Assembly (NCBI GenBank): GCA_913062645.1
Contig: CAJXVW010000001.1
Span: 310,001-374,000 of the forward strand
From: an uncultured Mycoplasmatota bacterium
GTDB lineage: Bacteria; Bacillota_I; Bacilli_A; Izemoplasmatales; Izemoplasmataceae
Direction: 5' to 3'
Length of the DNA stretch: 64,000 nucleotides
Below are positions 3,331 to 19,905 of the stretch, piece by piece. The notes under the pieces are model-generated. The model saw only the letters and a list, made by a program, of their open reading frames with translations. It was not told the DNA's origin and did not search any database. The stretch's first letter is position 1. Every line of letters starts with the position of its first letter. The position numbers were made by a program, and so were the translations under genes.

Positions 3331-3354
3331 GACACTTTGAGTGTCTTTTCTTTT
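3331..3354 (+). terminator. Rho-independent terminator
   Basis: GACACT/AGTGTC stem directly after the stop codon, followed by a T-rich run. Confidence 0.7.
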
Positions 3355-3386
3355 CAAATGTATTATAATGGAACCGAGGTGATGAC

Positions 3387-4052
3387 ATGGACCGATACAA
3401 GATCACATTGCGCGGCCGCAAGCACCTGACGGCCGACTACTATGCGTTTCATTTCGACAAACCGGAAGGACTGACCTTCGAGGAGGGTCAATACGGTGTG
3501 TTTCTGATTGACGATCGCCCGGTTGAAGGGCGCAATCTCCGTGCCTTCAGTTTCGCATCGTCCCAACACGAATCCAATCTGATGATTGCGACCAAGATTG
3601 TGAACGAGCCCTCCGACTACAAGCGGCAGTTGCTCGAGATGGAGGACGGGGCAGAGATGACCGTCGCCGGACCGACCGGAAGGTTTACGCTTGAGCCCGA
3701 TCATGACGCCGTCTTCATTGCTGGCGGCATCGGCATCACGCCGATTCGCAGCATGCTGATGACCCGACACGTACACGATTATAACACCAAACACGTCTTG
3801 ATCTATAGCGAACTCAACGAAGCATATCCGTTTGCAGATGAACTGAACGAGTTGAAGGGTGTCGACATCCACTACACCAGCGGGGTCGAGCCGACCCGCA
3901 ATCAAATCGAAGCAGTGGCCGCTGCGCACATGAATGAGGCGTACTATTATCTCGCTGGGAGTCCTGGTTTTGTGAGTGGCATCCAGGATCAACTGGTGTT
4001 GCTCGGCATTCAACCCGACCGCATCAAATACGATCGCTTTACCGGATATTGA
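3387..4052 (+). CDS. FAD/NAD(P)H oxidoreductase, ferredoxin-NADP reductase-like
   Basis: A 221-residue soluble flavoprotein of the ferredoxin reductase superfamily. The FAD domain occupies about residues 1-100, with RAFSFAS (the RxYS-like flavin motif) near residue 52. The NAD(P) domain follows, with the diagnostic GGIGITPIRSM near residue 113. No ferredoxin domain or cysteine cluster is present, so it must use a separate redox partner. The start at 3387 follows a GAGGTG ribosome site. It lies 37 bases ahead of the cobalamin adenosyltransferase, which needs cob(I)alamin; a reductase supplying electrons there would make sense but is inference. Confidence 0.82.
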   Translation: MDRYKITLRGRKHLTADYYAFHFDKPEGLTFEEGQYGVFLIDDRPVEGRNLRAFSFASSQHESNLMIATKIVNEPSDYKRQLLEMEDGAEMTVAGPTGRFTLEPDHDAVFIAGGIGITPIRSMLMTRHVHDYNTKHVLIYSELNEAYPFADELNELKGVDIHYTSGVEPTRNQIEAVAAAHMNEAYYYLAGSPGFVSGIQDQLVLLGIQPDRIKYDRFTGY

Positions 4053-14611: not shown

Positions 14612-14617
14612 TACAAT
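14612..14617 (+). promoter_or_regulatory. Probable -10 box of the repeat lipoprotein
   Basis: TACAAT about 45 bases ahead of the start. No good -35 at 17 bp; TTCATA at 14586-14591 has a 20-bp spacing. It overlaps an upstream in-frame ATG (14616), so that ATG cannot be the start on this transcript. Confidence 0.4.
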
Positions 14618-14660
14618 GAAGGTGTATAAGCAAAAATTATATAGAAAGAGGTGCACGAAT

Positions 14661-17600
14661 TTGAAACGAATGTTCACGCTCCTGCTCGGTGTGCTACTCG
14701 CACTTGGTCTGAGTGGATGCGATCTGTTTAATCCCGACGACGTATGTCCCGACGGCTACATTTTTGATGAAGACGCCGGGGAATGTGTTGAAGATGTGGA
14801 TCCGACAGACAACCAAGCTCCAACGATTACACTCAACGGTCCGGCATCCATTACGATCAGCGTTGGTACAGCGTACAATGACGCCGGCGCGACAGCGAAC
14901 GATCCAGAAGACGGCGATTTGACCGCCGACATCGTCGTCGTCAACCCTGTCAACACCGCTGTAGCAGGAAATTACACGATTACTTACAACGTATCGGACT
15001 CCGAAGGTTTGGCGGCACAACAAGTGACGCGAACCGTCATAGTCCAAGAAGAAGCGGTAAACAATTTGCCAACCATCACTTTGAATGGGGCTGCCACCAT
15101 CACGATCACCGTGGGGGACGCCTACAATGATCTGGGTGCTACCGCATCCGACGTGGAGGACGGCGACCTGACATCATCGATCGTCGTTGTCAACAATGTC
15201 AATCCGATGGTTGCGGGGAACTATACGGTAACCTACAACGTCACCGATGGCAATGGCGGTGCGGCCACGCAAGTGACCCGGACGGTCATCGTTCTGCCCT
15301 CCGATGCGCAATTGATTGCCGAACTCATCGTCGACAGCTTTGAAACATCTGGTGATATCCAGTTCCTGGCCCTCACCATGGCCAACATGGACTTCTCACA
15401 AGCGATGACGCTGACGACGGACTTTTACATGGAAATCAGCGAAGATGTTGATGAAACGCACTACATCAGTGCAATCGTGGAGGACAGTTATCTCTACGAT
15501 GAACTGGGCGACTCGATGCAACGGGTCGTCACCCTTGACGTGGATGGCGAACAGACCATCGAACTGACGGTCATTTTCGAAGAAGTAGCGACCGGCGTTC
15601 ATGTCTACATTCACTATGCACCGATCATCGACCTGATTACAATGCAGGACCCGGAAGTCGCCGACATGATTGGCTATGTTGGATTCGATGACGAATGGGC
15701 CCTGTTCCAGTTTGATGATTCGCTGCAAAACATCATCGAAATTCAAGTACTCAAGGACATGCTCGTATCCCTGTTCTTCAGTGAAGTAGGCGAGATGTTC
15801 TTCTATCAGCTGCAAGATGAGCTGGAAGCACAAATCGGTTTCGATCTGAACCAGTATGGCGTTGAATTCGGACAATTCATCGATTATCTGATCGAAGAAG
15901 ACTTCGACAGTGCCGAACTGCTTCTCCAAGGAATCGATGTCGACGGCATCGTCTTGCGACTCGATCACATGTACGTGGCGTATCAGCTCCGTCAGTTCTT
16001 CCTGATGTATGAAACCGAGTTAACCACCGCAGGATTCGACATCACCAGACTCGACCTGCTGGACACGGCGACATACGATGAGCTGAATGACGTCTGGAAC
16101 GTCAACCTGCCAATCGATCCGCTCGAAGGTTCGCAGGCATTCTTCGACAGCCTGTCCGAGACCGAACTCGACACCTTGATCGAAGTCGCCATCAAGCCGT
16201 TCATCGAAGGCATGGTATTTGAAGGGCTCACCAGTGACATCACTCCGGAATGGCTCGACAATGACCTTGGTGCGATTCTCCAGGGTGACCAGCAATTCTT
16301 CATCGACAACTGGCCGGAAGCCAGCGGCGCTTGGGATCAAGCGGCAGAACTGGCCGATCTGGCAAGCCTCGGTGCGGTCGAATACTGGAAACAACTGACT
16401 CAGGAAGAACGCGACGTCATCCGGTGGTCGCTAGACATGAACCACCATGGCTGGACCGTTTGGAGTCTGCGTGAGATTTATGAAAACGAATGGGATTACC
16501 AGTGGATGATTCGCCGCTACGAACATTTCTATGAAAATGAATGGATCACTGGTGATTTGAATGATTTGATCGTCAATCTGGAAACCTATCTGCTCAATAC
16601 CCACGGCGTCGTCGCCAACGACTGGCTTACCGAATTGAACGACATGGGTGGTATCGACTGGTATCTGAGTCTTGATCAGACCAGCCGCGACATCATGATC
16701 GATCTTGCGCAACAACCTGGTTACGAACAATGGGCTTGGGCCGTTTGGGACATGGAAATGGCCGCCAACGATCCGTGGCAATACCAGTGGCGTTTCACCG
16801 ATGGCCGGCACTGGCTCGATGAAGGCTGGATTCATGGTGATCTCGTCCAATTGATCAACAATCACTCCACATATCTGATGGACGAATATGGCATCGACGG
16901 TGGTGCACTGATTGCTGAAATTGATATGTATGGTGCTATCGATTGGTACTTCTTCCAAGCATCCGGCGATGTCAAGGATGCGCTTGATGAGATTTCCCGC
17001 TTCAACGACTACGAACTGCGTTGGGTCATCGACGAACTGCAGATGGTCGAAGAACGCCTCGATCAATACTTCTGGCGCTTCGGTCGTCCCGAAGAACTCT
17101 ATGACTTCTATTGGCTCAACAATGAACTTGATTGGCTGCTGTACTTCAATCAGGACTATCTGCAAACCACGTACGGCGTCGACGTCGATGCCTGGCGTGC
17201 CGACATCATGTATGGTGGAGCATTGCAGTGGTACGGCAACCTGAATGAAACCGAACGCGGTTATGTGGATGAGATTTCACAATTCGAACCAATGGATTAC
17301 CGTTGGCCGGTTGAGGTGCTCCAGCAACTCAACACTGGCGAAGGCGAGTTTGGAATCTGCCTCGGCAACTGGGATATGTGTCTGGAAGACCAGTGGGCTA
17401 CCGAAGACCTCGTTGGCTTGATCAACCAGCACTCCGATTGGTTGACGAACGACTATGGCTACGATGTCCCGGCGCTGATCAGTGACATTGAAATGTATGG
17501 CGCCATCGACTGGTATCTGTATTACGCCACCGAATGGGACCGTGAGGTTCTCGATGAACTGGCCCGTGCCAGCGAATGGCCGTACGAAGTCCTTTGGACC

Positions 17601-19172
17601 CTCGAAGATGCCCTTTGGCAGGAACAAGACCTGCTTGACTTCCTCACCGTGCACCAGAGTGAACTGGATGCAATCGGCTTCGACGCAACACAAAAAATCG
17701 CCGATCTGCAGATGTATGGTATTCAGGTGTTCATGAACGATTATCTGACACCGGACGACATTGCAATTCTCATGGACGAATACGTCTATCCGAAAATCGA
17801 TGGTCTGATCGATGCGATCAACACCAACGAAGTACCGGAATATCTGCTCAGCACGTTCTTCACTGATCCGCATGTCATCGCTGTGTTAGACAGTCTCGAT
17901 CCGACTCCGGAGTTCGATCCGTTCGATCTGATTCTGATCGATGATCTTGCTGCCAACATGATGGCGGTGGACTTCGATGCACTGGCTTTGGAAACGGTCG
18001 ACATGGAAGCACTCCTGACCGCAGTATACGAAGGTCAGACGGCGTATGACACATTCTTGACCAACATTGAGTTGACGGCTCCGAACAGTGTTCTGATTCT
18101 CGAACTCTTCAGTCCTGCCGTCGACACCATTCAGCCGTTCATGATCTATGTCGATGACATCAACTACGCATTTGAAGGTCTGTCGGTGTTTGAACACTAT
18201 CTCGACATGAGCTATTGGATGCAAGGCAACATGATGGACGTCGATGTCGAAGCCACCGACGACTGGTGGATTCTCACGACGATGCAGATGGATTCCATCA
18301 GTTATCAACTGCTTGTCGAAGACATCTTCGCCGACATTAACACGTACTTGTCCGGTTTCGAAACCTTGCCGTTCCCATTCGATGAGAACTGGGATTGCAT
18401 CGATCCTCTGGATACCGAGTGCAGCGACATCAGCGATGACATCAACAACATCAACGCAATTCTGACGCAACTCGGCACGATCGACATGCATGCCCTCTAC
18501 GATCCCTCTGATCCGACCTGGATGCAACTGGGACTCGATCTCACCGACTTCGCCGACGTCATCGTCAGTGGCGCTTATGATGATTTCCTCGATGACAACC
18601 CGGGCTATGTTCCGAACAATCAGGATGACATCTGGACCGGTGTCAACGAACTGTCCATTACCATCACCATGGACAGCGAAGGCATCATTACGATTCCGGC
18701 TGCTGCCGACGTGGACAATGCCAATGAGATCGCACAGGACCTCGGCAAGTTCGCCGTCAGCATGTTCGCCCGTGATTTCCTCCGTGAACTGGTCTGGTAC
18801 TACGAACAGAATCCATCCGAAATCGCCGATCTGACACAAACCAGCTATACACTCGCTGAGTTTGATCACATTATTCGTCTCTCGGCAGCGTTCGATCATG
18901 AGCTCTCGACCATCGGGGTTACCATCAATCCGCTGGATCCGACGAACCCACAGTTCAATCTCACGTTGTACTGGATCGATGGAACCGAAGCATTGAGTGG
19001 AACCGTCAGTCTGACCGACTTCCAAAGCAACTTCGACGAGTTCAACGAACTGACATCGGCTGCCGCCTTCCAGGCGATGGTCGGATACGTCAACGACGAC
19101 AATTTCCACATGTCGAAACTGTTCTTGATGCTGATGCTTCAGGAAGAGGAAGAATACTATCCGGAATACTGA
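14661..19172 (+). CDS. Giant surface lipoprotein with Ig-like domains and W-rich ~95-residue repeats
   Basis: 1,503 residues. A lipoprotein signal ends LGLSGC (Cys 20). Next comes a small Cys motif, CPDGYIFDEDAGEC, then two tandem DUF5011/HYR-like Ig domains (about residues 52-215, each with GATANDPEDGDLT or GATASDVEDGDLT and GNYTVTYNV). The rest matches no family I know. Its middle holds five repeats, each opening with W-x(3)-DL and containing YL-x(3)-YG, a G-A-I-DWY block and a W/Y-rich end. The opening Trp codons lie at 16251, 16542, 16827, 17112 and 17394, with a shortened unit at 17616. TTG at 14661 is chosen for the AGAGG at 14646-14650 and the signal peptide. Very acidic, rich in Asp, Trp and Tyr; a surface-binding role is inference. 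Confidence 0.85.
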   Translation: MKRMFTLLLGVLLALGLSGCDLFNPDDVCPDGYIFDEDAGECVEDVDPTDNQAPTITLNGPASITISVGTAYNDAGATANDPEDGDLTADIVVVNPVNTAVAGNYTITYNVSDSEGLAAQQVTRTVIVQEEAVNNLPTITLNGAATITITVGDAYNDLGATASDVEDGDLTSSIVVVNNVNPMVAGNYTVTYNVTDGNGGAATQVTRTVIVLPSDAQLIAELIVDSFETSGDIQFLALTMANMDFSQAMTLTTDFYMEISEDVDETHYISAIVEDSYLYDELGDSMQRVVTLDVDGEQTIELTVIFEEVATGVHVYIHYAPIIDLITMQDPEVADMIGYVGFDDEWALFQFDDSLQNIIEIQVLKDMLVSLFFSEVGEMFFYQLQDELEAQIGFDLNQYGVEFGQFIDYLIEEDFDSAELLLQGIDVDGIVLRLDHMYVAYQLRQFFLMYETELTTAGFDITRLDLLDTATYDELNDVWNVNLPIDPLEGSQAFFDSLSETELDTLIEVAIKPFIEGMVFEGLTSDITPEWLDNDLGAILQGDQQFFIDNWPEASGAWDQAAELADLASLGAVEYWKQLTQEERDVIRWSLDMNHHGWTVWSLREIYENEWDYQWMIRRYEHFYENEWITGDLNDLIVNLETYLLNTHGVVANDWLTELNDMGGIDWYLSLDQTSRDIMIDLAQQPGYEQWAWAVWDMEMAANDPWQYQWRFTDGRHWLDEGWIHGDLVQLINNHSTYLMDEYGIDGGALIAEIDMYGAIDWYFFQASGDVKDALDEISRFNDYELRWVIDELQMVEERLDQYFWRFGRPEELYDFYWLNNELDWLLYFNQDYLQTTYGVDVDAWRADIMYGGALQWYGNLNETERGYVDEISQFEPMDYRWPVEVLQQLNTGEGEFGICLGNWDMCLEDQWATEDLVGLINQHSDWLTNDYGYDVPALISDIEMYGAIDWYLYYATEWDREVLDELARASEWPYEVLWTLEDALWQEQDLLDFLTVHQSELDAIGFDATQKIADLQMYGIQVFMNDYLTPDDIAILMDEYVYPKIDGLIDAINTNEVPEYLLSTFFTDPHVIAVLDSLDPTPEFDPFDLILIDDLAANMMAVDFDALALETVDMEALLTAVYEGQTAYDTFLTNIELTAPNSVLILELFSPAVDTIQPFMIYVDDINYAFEGLSVFEHYLDMSYWMQGNMMDVDVEATDDWWILTTMQMDSISYQLLVEDIFADINTYLSGFETLPFPFDENWDCIDPLDTECSDISDDINNINAILTQLGTIDMHALYDPSDPTWMQLGLDLTDFADVIVSGAYDDFLDDNPGYVPNNQDDIWTGVNELSITITMDSEGIITIPAAADVDNANEIAQDLGKFAVSMFARDFLRELVWYYEQNPSEIADLTQTSYTLAEFDHIIRLSAAFDHELSTIGVTINPLDPTNPQFNLTLYWIDGTEALSGTVSLTDFQSNFDEFNELTSAAAFQAMVGYVNDDNFHMSKLFLMLMLQEEEEYYPEY
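16251..17838 (+). repeat. Tandem protein repeats, five full units plus one short
   Basis: Unit starts (Trp codons) at 16251, 16542, 16827, 17112, 17394 and 17616 give spacings of 291, 285, 285, 282 and 222 bases. All are multiples of three, so each change is a whole-codon insertion or deletion. The DNA has diverged well beyond the protein pattern, which points to old duplications kept by selection. Confidence 0.8.
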
Positions 19173-19196: not shown

Positions 19197-19225
19197 TTGC
19201 ATATGTGCAGGAAGTGTGGTATATT
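19197..19225 (+). promoter_or_regulatory. Promoter of the candidate small RNA
   Basis: TTGCAT (19197-19202), a 17-bp spacer and TATATT (19220-19225). The predicted start, near 19231, coincides with the first base of the first hairpin, and no open reading frame follows. Confidence 0.6.
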
Positions 19226-19230
19226 AAAGG

Positions 19231-19366
19231 TGCGACATAGTCGCAACTTATCCCTTACATAGCATGGTGAATATTCATTATTCACACATCCCCTTCCTTG
19301 AACCGCCGAGAGGCGGTTCTTCCCTTATATTGGGCACAAAAAACGGCTGATTCCAGCCGTTTTTGT
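19231..19366 (+). ncRNA. Candidate structured small RNA with C-rich linkers
   Basis: About 136 nt without a reading frame. Hairpins in order: TGCGAC/GTCGCA (19231-19245), GTGAATA/TATTCAC (19267-19285), GAACCGCC/GGCGGTTC with a GAGA tetraloop (19300-19319) and a terminator stem (19336-19366). All four stems are perfect. The single-stranded linkers carry ATCCCTT (19250-19256), CCCCTTCCTT (19290-19299) and TTCCCTT (19320-19326), which can pair with purine-rich ribosome-binding sites, as in Listeria LhrC or Staphylococcus RsaE. No match to tmRNA, 6S or SRP RNA is evident. Alternatively it could be a leader of the downstream hsp20, but the terminator and a separate hsp20 promoter argue against that. 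Confidence 0.6.
19336..19366 (+). terminator. Terminator of the candidate small RNA
   Basis: ACGGCTG/CAGCCGT stem with a three-base loop, A-rich before and five T after. Confidence 0.75.
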
Positions 19367-19395: not shown

Positions 19396-19424
19396 TTGAC
19401 AAAACGTGAATGTTGTCCTATAAT
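19396..19424 (+). promoter_or_regulatory. hsp20 promoter
   Basis: TTGACA (19396-19401), 17-bp spacer, TATAAT (19419-19424): full consensus at both boxes. Confidence 0.85.
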
Positions 19425-19431
19425 ATAGTTG

Positions 19432-19458
19432 CTAGCACTCAATAAGAGAGAGTGCCAA
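19432..19458 (+). promoter_or_regulatory. CIRCE operator (HrcA site) of hsp20
   Basis: CTAGCACTC, nine bases, GAGTGCCAA. This is one mismatch per arm from the CIRCE consensus TTAGCACTC-N9-GAGTGCTAA, placed just after the -10 where HrcA would block initiation. Confidence 0.9.
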
Positions 19459-19488: not shown

Positions 19489-19905
19489 ATGTATCGCATC
19501 ACACCGTATCGTCGCAGAAACAATGCGCGGGATGTGTTTGATCTGTTCGATGACTTCTTCAATGCACCGACCGCCTACATGCGCGACATTCGCATTGACG
19601 TCAAGGACGAAAAGGACAAGTATGTCGTCGAAGCCGAAGTTCCGGGACTTGAGAAGAAGGACATGGCGATCAAGTTTGAAAACGATCACCTCACCATCAG
19701 CATCAACAAAGAACAAGAACAAGAAGACAAACAGGACGACAAATACATCCATCGCGAACGTTACAGCTTCAAATCCGAACGTAAGATTTATCTTGAAGAT
19801 GTGGATCCGAAGAAACTCAACGCGGCTTTGAAGGATGGCGTACTGCGCATCGACCTGCCGAAACTAGAACACAAGATCTCCTCTTACATGATTGACATCA
19901 AGTAG
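19489..19905 (+). CDS. Small heat-shock protein, Hsp20/alpha-crystallin family
   Basis: ATP-independent holdase chaperone, 138 residues. A short N-terminal arm (FDLFDDFFNAPT) precedes the alpha-crystallin domain (about residues 35-130) with DVKDEKDKYVVEAEVPGLEKKDMAIKFENDHLTI, the RERYSFKSERKIYLEDVDPKKLNAALKDGVLRIDLPK block and a C-terminal tail. The VLRIDLPK strand is the family's best-known motif, here in place of GVL-V-PK. AAGGAGG lies before the ATG. The CIRCE element puts it under HrcA, so it should rise on heat shock together with htpG. Confidence 0.95.
   Translation: MYRITPYRRRNNARDVFDLFDDFFNAPTAYMRDIRIDVKDEKDKYVVEAEVPGLEKKDMAIKFENDHLTISINKEQEQEDKQDDKYIHRERYSFKSERKIYLEDVDPKKLNAALKDGVLRIDLPKLEHKISSYMIDIK

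Follow-up and report, generated by a model that had tools for sequence, protein, structure and literature searches.

What does the gap between a surface lipoprotein gene and an hsp20 gene encode in a bacterium assigned to Candidatus Izemoplasmatales? The window analysed here, a stretch of 64,000 nucleotides, is part of a genome of 1.99 Mb in 2 contigs (hereafter G000). The original prediction placed in this gap a small RNA (sRNA) with three C-rich linkers, comparable to those with which Listeria LhrC and staphylococcal RsaE block ribosome-binding sites. To our knowledge, control by sRNAs is poorly known in mollicutes and their free-living relatives. Judged by sequence comparison, the RNA is real, and it is nearly unchanged across the wall-less relatives of Izemoplasma and Acholeplasma and in some of their phages. 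By analogy with known sRNAs, it probably silences genes through two C-rich stretches that would bind ribosome-binding sites.

The Locus and Its Predicted Transcript

All features described here lie on the forward strand. The promoter (19197–19225) consists, just as had been proposed, of a −35 element TTGCAT (19197–19202), a spacer of 17 nt and a −10 element TATATT (19220–19225); in addition, the −10 is extended by TG. Sequences upstream of hairpin 1 that match TTGACA/TATAAT at 9 or more of 12 positions are present in 87 of 97 homologues, versus 13% of shuffles. The predicted transcript of about 136 nt (19231–19366) begins with a perfect hairpin 1 (UGCGAC AUA GUCGCA, 19231–19245) at the expected transcription start, whose sequence varies among copies with the pairing kept. 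It is followed by linker 1, ACUUAUCCCUUACAUAGC (19246–19263), which is predicted to be exposed; its core AUCCCUU (19250–19256) has an unpaired probability of 0.88–0.98 in the predicted fold. Hairpin 2 (AUG-GUGAAUA ... UAUUCAC-A-CAU, 19264–19289) has a variable loop, and its closing strand CAU doubles as the beginning of linker 2, CAUCCCCUUCCUU (19287–19299). Linker 2 is predicted to be exposed from 19290, and the unpaired probability of this part, CCCCTTCCTT (19290–19299), is 0.76–1.0. Next comes a perfect hairpin 3 (GAACCGCC GAGA GGCGGUUC, 19300–19319), which is followed by TTTTTCTTT in f3-type and mobile copies and serves as the terminator stem where the U-tract of a copy is unbroken. The intrinsic terminator of the window copy, AAAAACGGCUGAUUCCAGCCGUUUUU (19339–19364), occurs otherwise mainly in the closest relative. 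The hairpin at the transcription start, the two further hairpins and the terminator of the original prediction were all located in this way. None of 500 dinucleotide shuffles, which average −26.0 ± 3.4 kcal/mol, folds as stably as the 136-nt transcript itself (−50.3 kcal/mol; z −7.2).

The third C-tract, UUCCCUU (19320–19334), behaves differently from the other two. The unpaired probability of its CCC (19322–19324) is only 0.14–0.23 because this triplet pairs with GGG at 19332–19334 in a weak terminal hairpin, and a downstream GG(G) partner is present in 46 of the 50 copies having the tract. Of the three linkers once thought to be unpaired, ATCCCTT and CCCCTTCCTT stay exposed, whereas the third tract was rejected as an exposed targeting site. 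It had also been stated that the transcript contains no reading frame. In fact, ATG at 19264 opens a frame of 28 codons within it, but this frame is not kept among relatives, and a small protein was rejected. A discrete small RNA is a candidate backed by promoter, stems, terminator and conservation.

The gene 5′ of the RNA (14616–19172) encodes a surface lipoprotein of 1518 aa with two bacterial surface Ig-like domains (Pfam PF16403). On the 3′ side lies hsp20 (19489–19905; Pfam PF00011), which by sequence match has a separate consensus promoter, TTGACA-17-TATAAT (19396–19424), so that the RNA is not the hsp20 leader. A perfect CIRCE core (GCACTC-N9-GAGTGC) is situated at 19435–19455, between this promoter and hsp20, and control of hsp20 by HrcA is therefore probable.

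Conservation of Stems and Linkers

A second copy of the RNA was found by blastn in G000 itself, between topA and ftsY, and 55 of 61 relatives gave blastn matches at E ≤ 1, most of them strong. A covariance model (R1) was built from an alignment of 54 copies (A1). The window copy scores 128 bits against it (E 2.6e-29; E-values from our custom covariance models are rough). Within the family, R1 matches 47 of 49 genomes, the two lacking a match being 67% and 69% complete; within the order, it matches 58 of 90, and it also picks up divergent members in further families of the class. Across the class, a broader model, R2, matches 90 of 395 genomes, including one of 1,496,992 bp that is probably Acholeplasma laidlawii PG-8A, in which hairpin 1 lies near 352880 (+). 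The RNA is also carried by Xianfuyuplasma coldseepsis zrk13 (1,958,905 bp; CP048914, PMC8397711), which belongs to the same genus as G000; its three copies are at 83809–83922 (+), 413301–413417 (−) and 1345905–1346021 (+), numbered as in G002. In a DNA-pattern search, nearly all copies came from Izimaplasma/Izemoplasma or from other mollicute records. Thus, the search with a custom covariance model that had been suggested as a check recovered homologues with covarying stems.

Most members share a common layout: promoter, variable hairpin 1, (A)CUUAUCCC(C/U)UA, hairpin 2, AUCCCCUU and hairpin 3 or terminator. In family f3, which makes up part of the order, the variant UUUCCCU ... UUACCCUUCCU occupies the same site before ftsY. 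One f18 genome (L182) has two copies about 500 nt apart, at 2794–2920 and 3340–3439, the second of which is partly masked. Four weak model matches (L187, L191, L192 and L198) were left out of the member count. In L187 (3045–3128), the apparent 3′ half of a mobile copy, namely hairpin 3 and its flank, is fused to unrelated upstream DNA; it is perhaps an element junction or remnant.

In A1, 99.5% of the cells pair, and two-sided compensatory changes occur in 15 of 22 pairs; no shuffle equals either value, and pairing falls to 25–42% when partners are offset by one, two or three columns. Two-sided changes are found in 4 of 5 pairs of hairpin 1 (99.2% of cells paired), in 3 pairs of hairpin 2 (99.1%) and in all 8 pairs of hairpin 3. 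The divergent set A3 gave 99.0% paired cells and two-sided changes in 20 of 22 pairs, again unequalled by any shuffle, but A3 was fitted to the model and is biased towards structure, whereas A1 was not so fitted. The linkers ACUUAUCCCUUACAUAGC and CAUCCCCUUCCU, on the other hand, hardly vary among copies. The 18 nt of linker 1 are identical in 46 of 54 aligned copies (mean column identity 0.98) and the 13 nt of linker 2 in 47 of 54. Identity per column is 98% in the linkers, about 79% in hairpin 1 and about 60% in the flank. Mean predicted exposure across copies is 0.72 and 0.74 for the two linkers versus 0.46 for the whole RNA; for linker 1 it differs from copy to copy, with low values in a minority. 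Loss of the stems or C-tracts in relatives had been named as an observation that would count against the RNA; instead, the stems are maintained by compensatory changes and the C-tracts of linkers 1 and 2 are kept. A base-pairing RNA typically shows this combination of covarying stems and frozen single strands, and a protein ligand could yield it as well.

Genomic Settings of the Copies

Copies are found in three settings, with gene neighbours taken from a simple ORF picker. The first is topA-RNA-ftsY-ylxM-ffh: 49 loci have topA on the upstream side and 46 have ftsY/ffh on the downstream side, and the families of these genes were confirmed. The topA anchor was found in at least four families, and ftsY has a promoter-like sequence of its own. 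In Acholeplasma-type genomes, another gene is often 3′ of the RNA, in five cases one for a redoxin-family, thiol peroxidase-like protein (L218, L220, L211, L222 and L225). Two Izemoplasma-family genomes (L045 and L056) have glutathione peroxidase genes 5′ of the RNA. It is possible that these redoxin and glutathione peroxidase neighbours hint at redox regulation. The second setting comprises second copies behind a surface lipoprotein gene in the Izemoplasma family, at nine loci including that of the window. From the distribution of the copies, the window copy is a secondary, lineage-specific one, and topA-RNA-ftsY is the ancestral site of a core sRNA. The RNA matters more than its position in the window implies.

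In the third setting, a tandem pair of large serine recombinases is present, and a mobile copy is located directly 3′ of the second one. Such copies are known from IMG/VR contigs, from plasmid CP017949 and from chromosomes, where they lie beside tRNA or tmRNA genes. On phage and integrative elements they lie 30–60 nt past the second recombinase (L254, 11328–11371; L255, 7097–7138; L256, 12911–12954; L257, 2763–2811; L103; L065, L072 and L080). The element copies are followed by sequences like tRNA or tmRNA 3′ ends, and in hosts tRNA-Leu, tRNA-Cys or tmRNA genes come next, which suggests integration there. Mobile copies retain the whole RNA core. A tentative scenario, to which we give somewhat less than even credence, is that a core sRNA of the whole class, working without Hfq, arose before Izemoplasmatales and Acholeplasmatales diverged, and that it was taken up by temperate phages and integrative elements, which keep it beside their integrases with the linkers unchanged and could in this way tune the sRNA regulon of the host.

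Candidate Targets and Function

We consider it fairly probable that the locus encodes a trans-acting sRNA outside Rfam whose linkers 1 and 2 block the Shine-Dalgarno (SD) regions of several mRNAs without Hfq. The linkers AUCCCUU and CAUCCCCUUCC would pair with the G-rich SD regions AAGGGAU and GGAAGGGGAUG, linker 2 being the proposed main anti-SD site. Pairing would stop ribosome loading and lower translation independently of Hfq. Hairpin 1 may shield the 5′ end, hairpin 2 may keep the two linkers apart, and hairpin 3 with the following sequence would end transcription. An Hfq gene was not found in G000, and among 31 relatives searched just one has it (G013:C109:1347-1535, L311). The genome G013 is listed as 4% contaminated, so this Hfq gene may be foreign. 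We infer SD blocking without Hfq because the C-rich sRNAs of Firmicutes bind SD regions, because these sRNAs are the best sub-threshold Rfam matches and because Hfq was not found.

Target statistics cover 396 genes, drawn from about 464 kb of G000 (about 400 kb plus the window). Against their start regions, linker 2 did only slightly better than shuffled linkers (mean −9.78 versus −8.94 ± 0.66), with 12% of shuffles equally good, and linker 1 was no better than shuffled linkers. The best-pairing genes in this prediction include two for putative OppB-like permeases. In G001, one start region has a perfect 13-nt match to linker 2, GGAAGGGGATGTG, and G235 has an isolated target-like site, GAAGGGGATAAGTCATG. 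Genome-wide pattern searches for GGGATAAGT, GAAGGGGAT and AAGGGATA before ATG gave mostly in-gene matches and no coherent regulon.

Surface lipoproteins had been suggested as targets, and a dedicated regulator of their genes, with a role like that of LhrC, would account for some of the neighbourhoods. Lipoprotein genes adjoin the RNA in three lineages: upstream of the nine second copies, downstream in several f18 genomes, and downstream in G176, where an InlB-repeat surface-lipoprotein gene has a 9-nt match to linker 1, GGGATAAGT, at its start. However, the target predictions did not bear this out. The 27 lipoprotein-like genes among the 396 of G000 show no improved pairing to either linker (p 0.93 and 0.64), the start region of the adjoining lipoprotein gene pairs weakly with the linkers (−6.3 and −8.5 kcal/mol), and the neighbours of a trans-acting RNA need not be its targets. 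We regard so dedicated a role as improbable. A somewhat stronger competitor, unlikely as it still is, is a structured RNA comparable to 6S RNA or to RNAs that titrate proteins, in which the invariant linkers would serve as binding sites for a protein or for the ribosome. The 18 nt conserved in linker 1 exceed what SD pairing needs, so that a protein ligand or a single dominant target is possible; the weak target statistics and the retention of the whole core on mobile elements fit a bound protein as well. Against it, the conserved parts are single-stranded C-tracts like those of known SD-binding sRNAs, and the double-stranded body of a 6S-like RNA is absent. The 6S and SRP RNA models stayed below threshold in every copy tested, and bacterial small SRP RNA (RF00169) was rejected, its sole match in the genome lying elsewhere (G000:C2:419958-420050).

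The positions of the copies themselves bear on two further explanations. The RNA is always on the same strand as, and close 3′ of, topA, the lipoprotein gene or the recombinase gene in the three settings, and read-through could cover it, as would be expected if it were a cis-acting element of the neighbouring genes, whether leader, attenuator or part of a long 3′ UTR. Yet it has its own promoter and terminator, its neighbours vary by copy and lineage, and the downstream genes have promoters of their own; a leader of hsp20 or ftsY was rejected since both have such promoters downstream of the RNA. A cis-acting element is thus very improbable. That the sequence is a mobile or repeat element instead of a cellular gene might be supposed from the copies on phages, a plasmid and integrative elements, but these are a minority, and the topA-RNA-ftsY copy is inherited vertically, with covariation, in several families. 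This conserved synteny disfavours the idea to the point that we give it almost no credence.

If the RNA is a trans-acting sRNA that pairs with SD regions, C-rich RNAs of a putative anti-SD type would be present in a lineage where Hfq is mostly not found. The family offers deep conservation, a fixed address between topA and ftsY and a covariance model, and this core sRNA also has phage-borne copies. Since members occur in the culturable X. coldseepsis zrk13 and probably in A. laidlawii, expression and targets are testable at once.

Comparison with Known Small RNAs

Consistent with the claim that the RNA matches no known family, the Rfam search gave no family at its gathering score for the window or for 20 distant members. 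A literature search found no earlier description of the RNA; one study covers Tenericutes/Acholeplasma, with a method that its own authors called ill suited to sRNAs (PMC8632094). The best sub-threshold matches of three members were LhrC, RsaE/RoxS and FsrA, all C-rich sRNAs of Firmicutes whose UCCC tracts bind SD regions (PMC4132741, PMC4409812, PMC6435200), and the suspected likeness to LhrC and RsaE is thereby borne out. Membership was rejected in each case. The best LhrC (RF00616) match, in the probable A. laidlawii genome (L219), has 28.7 bits (E 0.0091) versus a gathering score of 110. RsaE/RoxS (RF01820) gave 19.5 bits (E 0.43) for the window and 18.6 bits for L219 (gathering score 79), and FsrA (RF02273) at best 24.2 bits (E 0.0037) for an f18 member (L174; gathering score 80). 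Like C-rich SD-binding trans-acting sRNAs, the RNA has its own promoter and terminator and conserved, exposed C-rich single strands, and it is noncoding. It is a new family, probably of this known functional kind.

The likeness to FsrA of Bacillus is that a C-rich linker separates a 5′ hairpin from the terminator, but the alignment with the f18 member omits much of the FsrA linker. RsaE/RoxS of Staphylococcus and Bacillus is induced via ResDE/SrrAB and nitric oxide. Its C-rich regions bind ribosome sites, and, as in the new RNA, a hairpin is followed by an exposed CAUCCCCUU before the terminator (PMC4409812, PMC6435200); the new RNA differs by an additional 5′ hairpin and the first C-linker. 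LhrC of Listeria is similar in its length of about 110 nt, its several copies per genome, its SD-binding UCCC motifs and its independence of Hfq (PMC4132741), but LhrC carries these motifs in one loop, one linker and the loop of its terminator, whereas those of the new RNA lie in two linkers. Finally, sRNAs of E. coli are likewise reported to be carried on mobile elements and to act with core-genome pathways (PMC13192938); the mobile copy of the new RNA differs in belonging to the same family as the core chromosomal sRNA, with its linkers unchanged.
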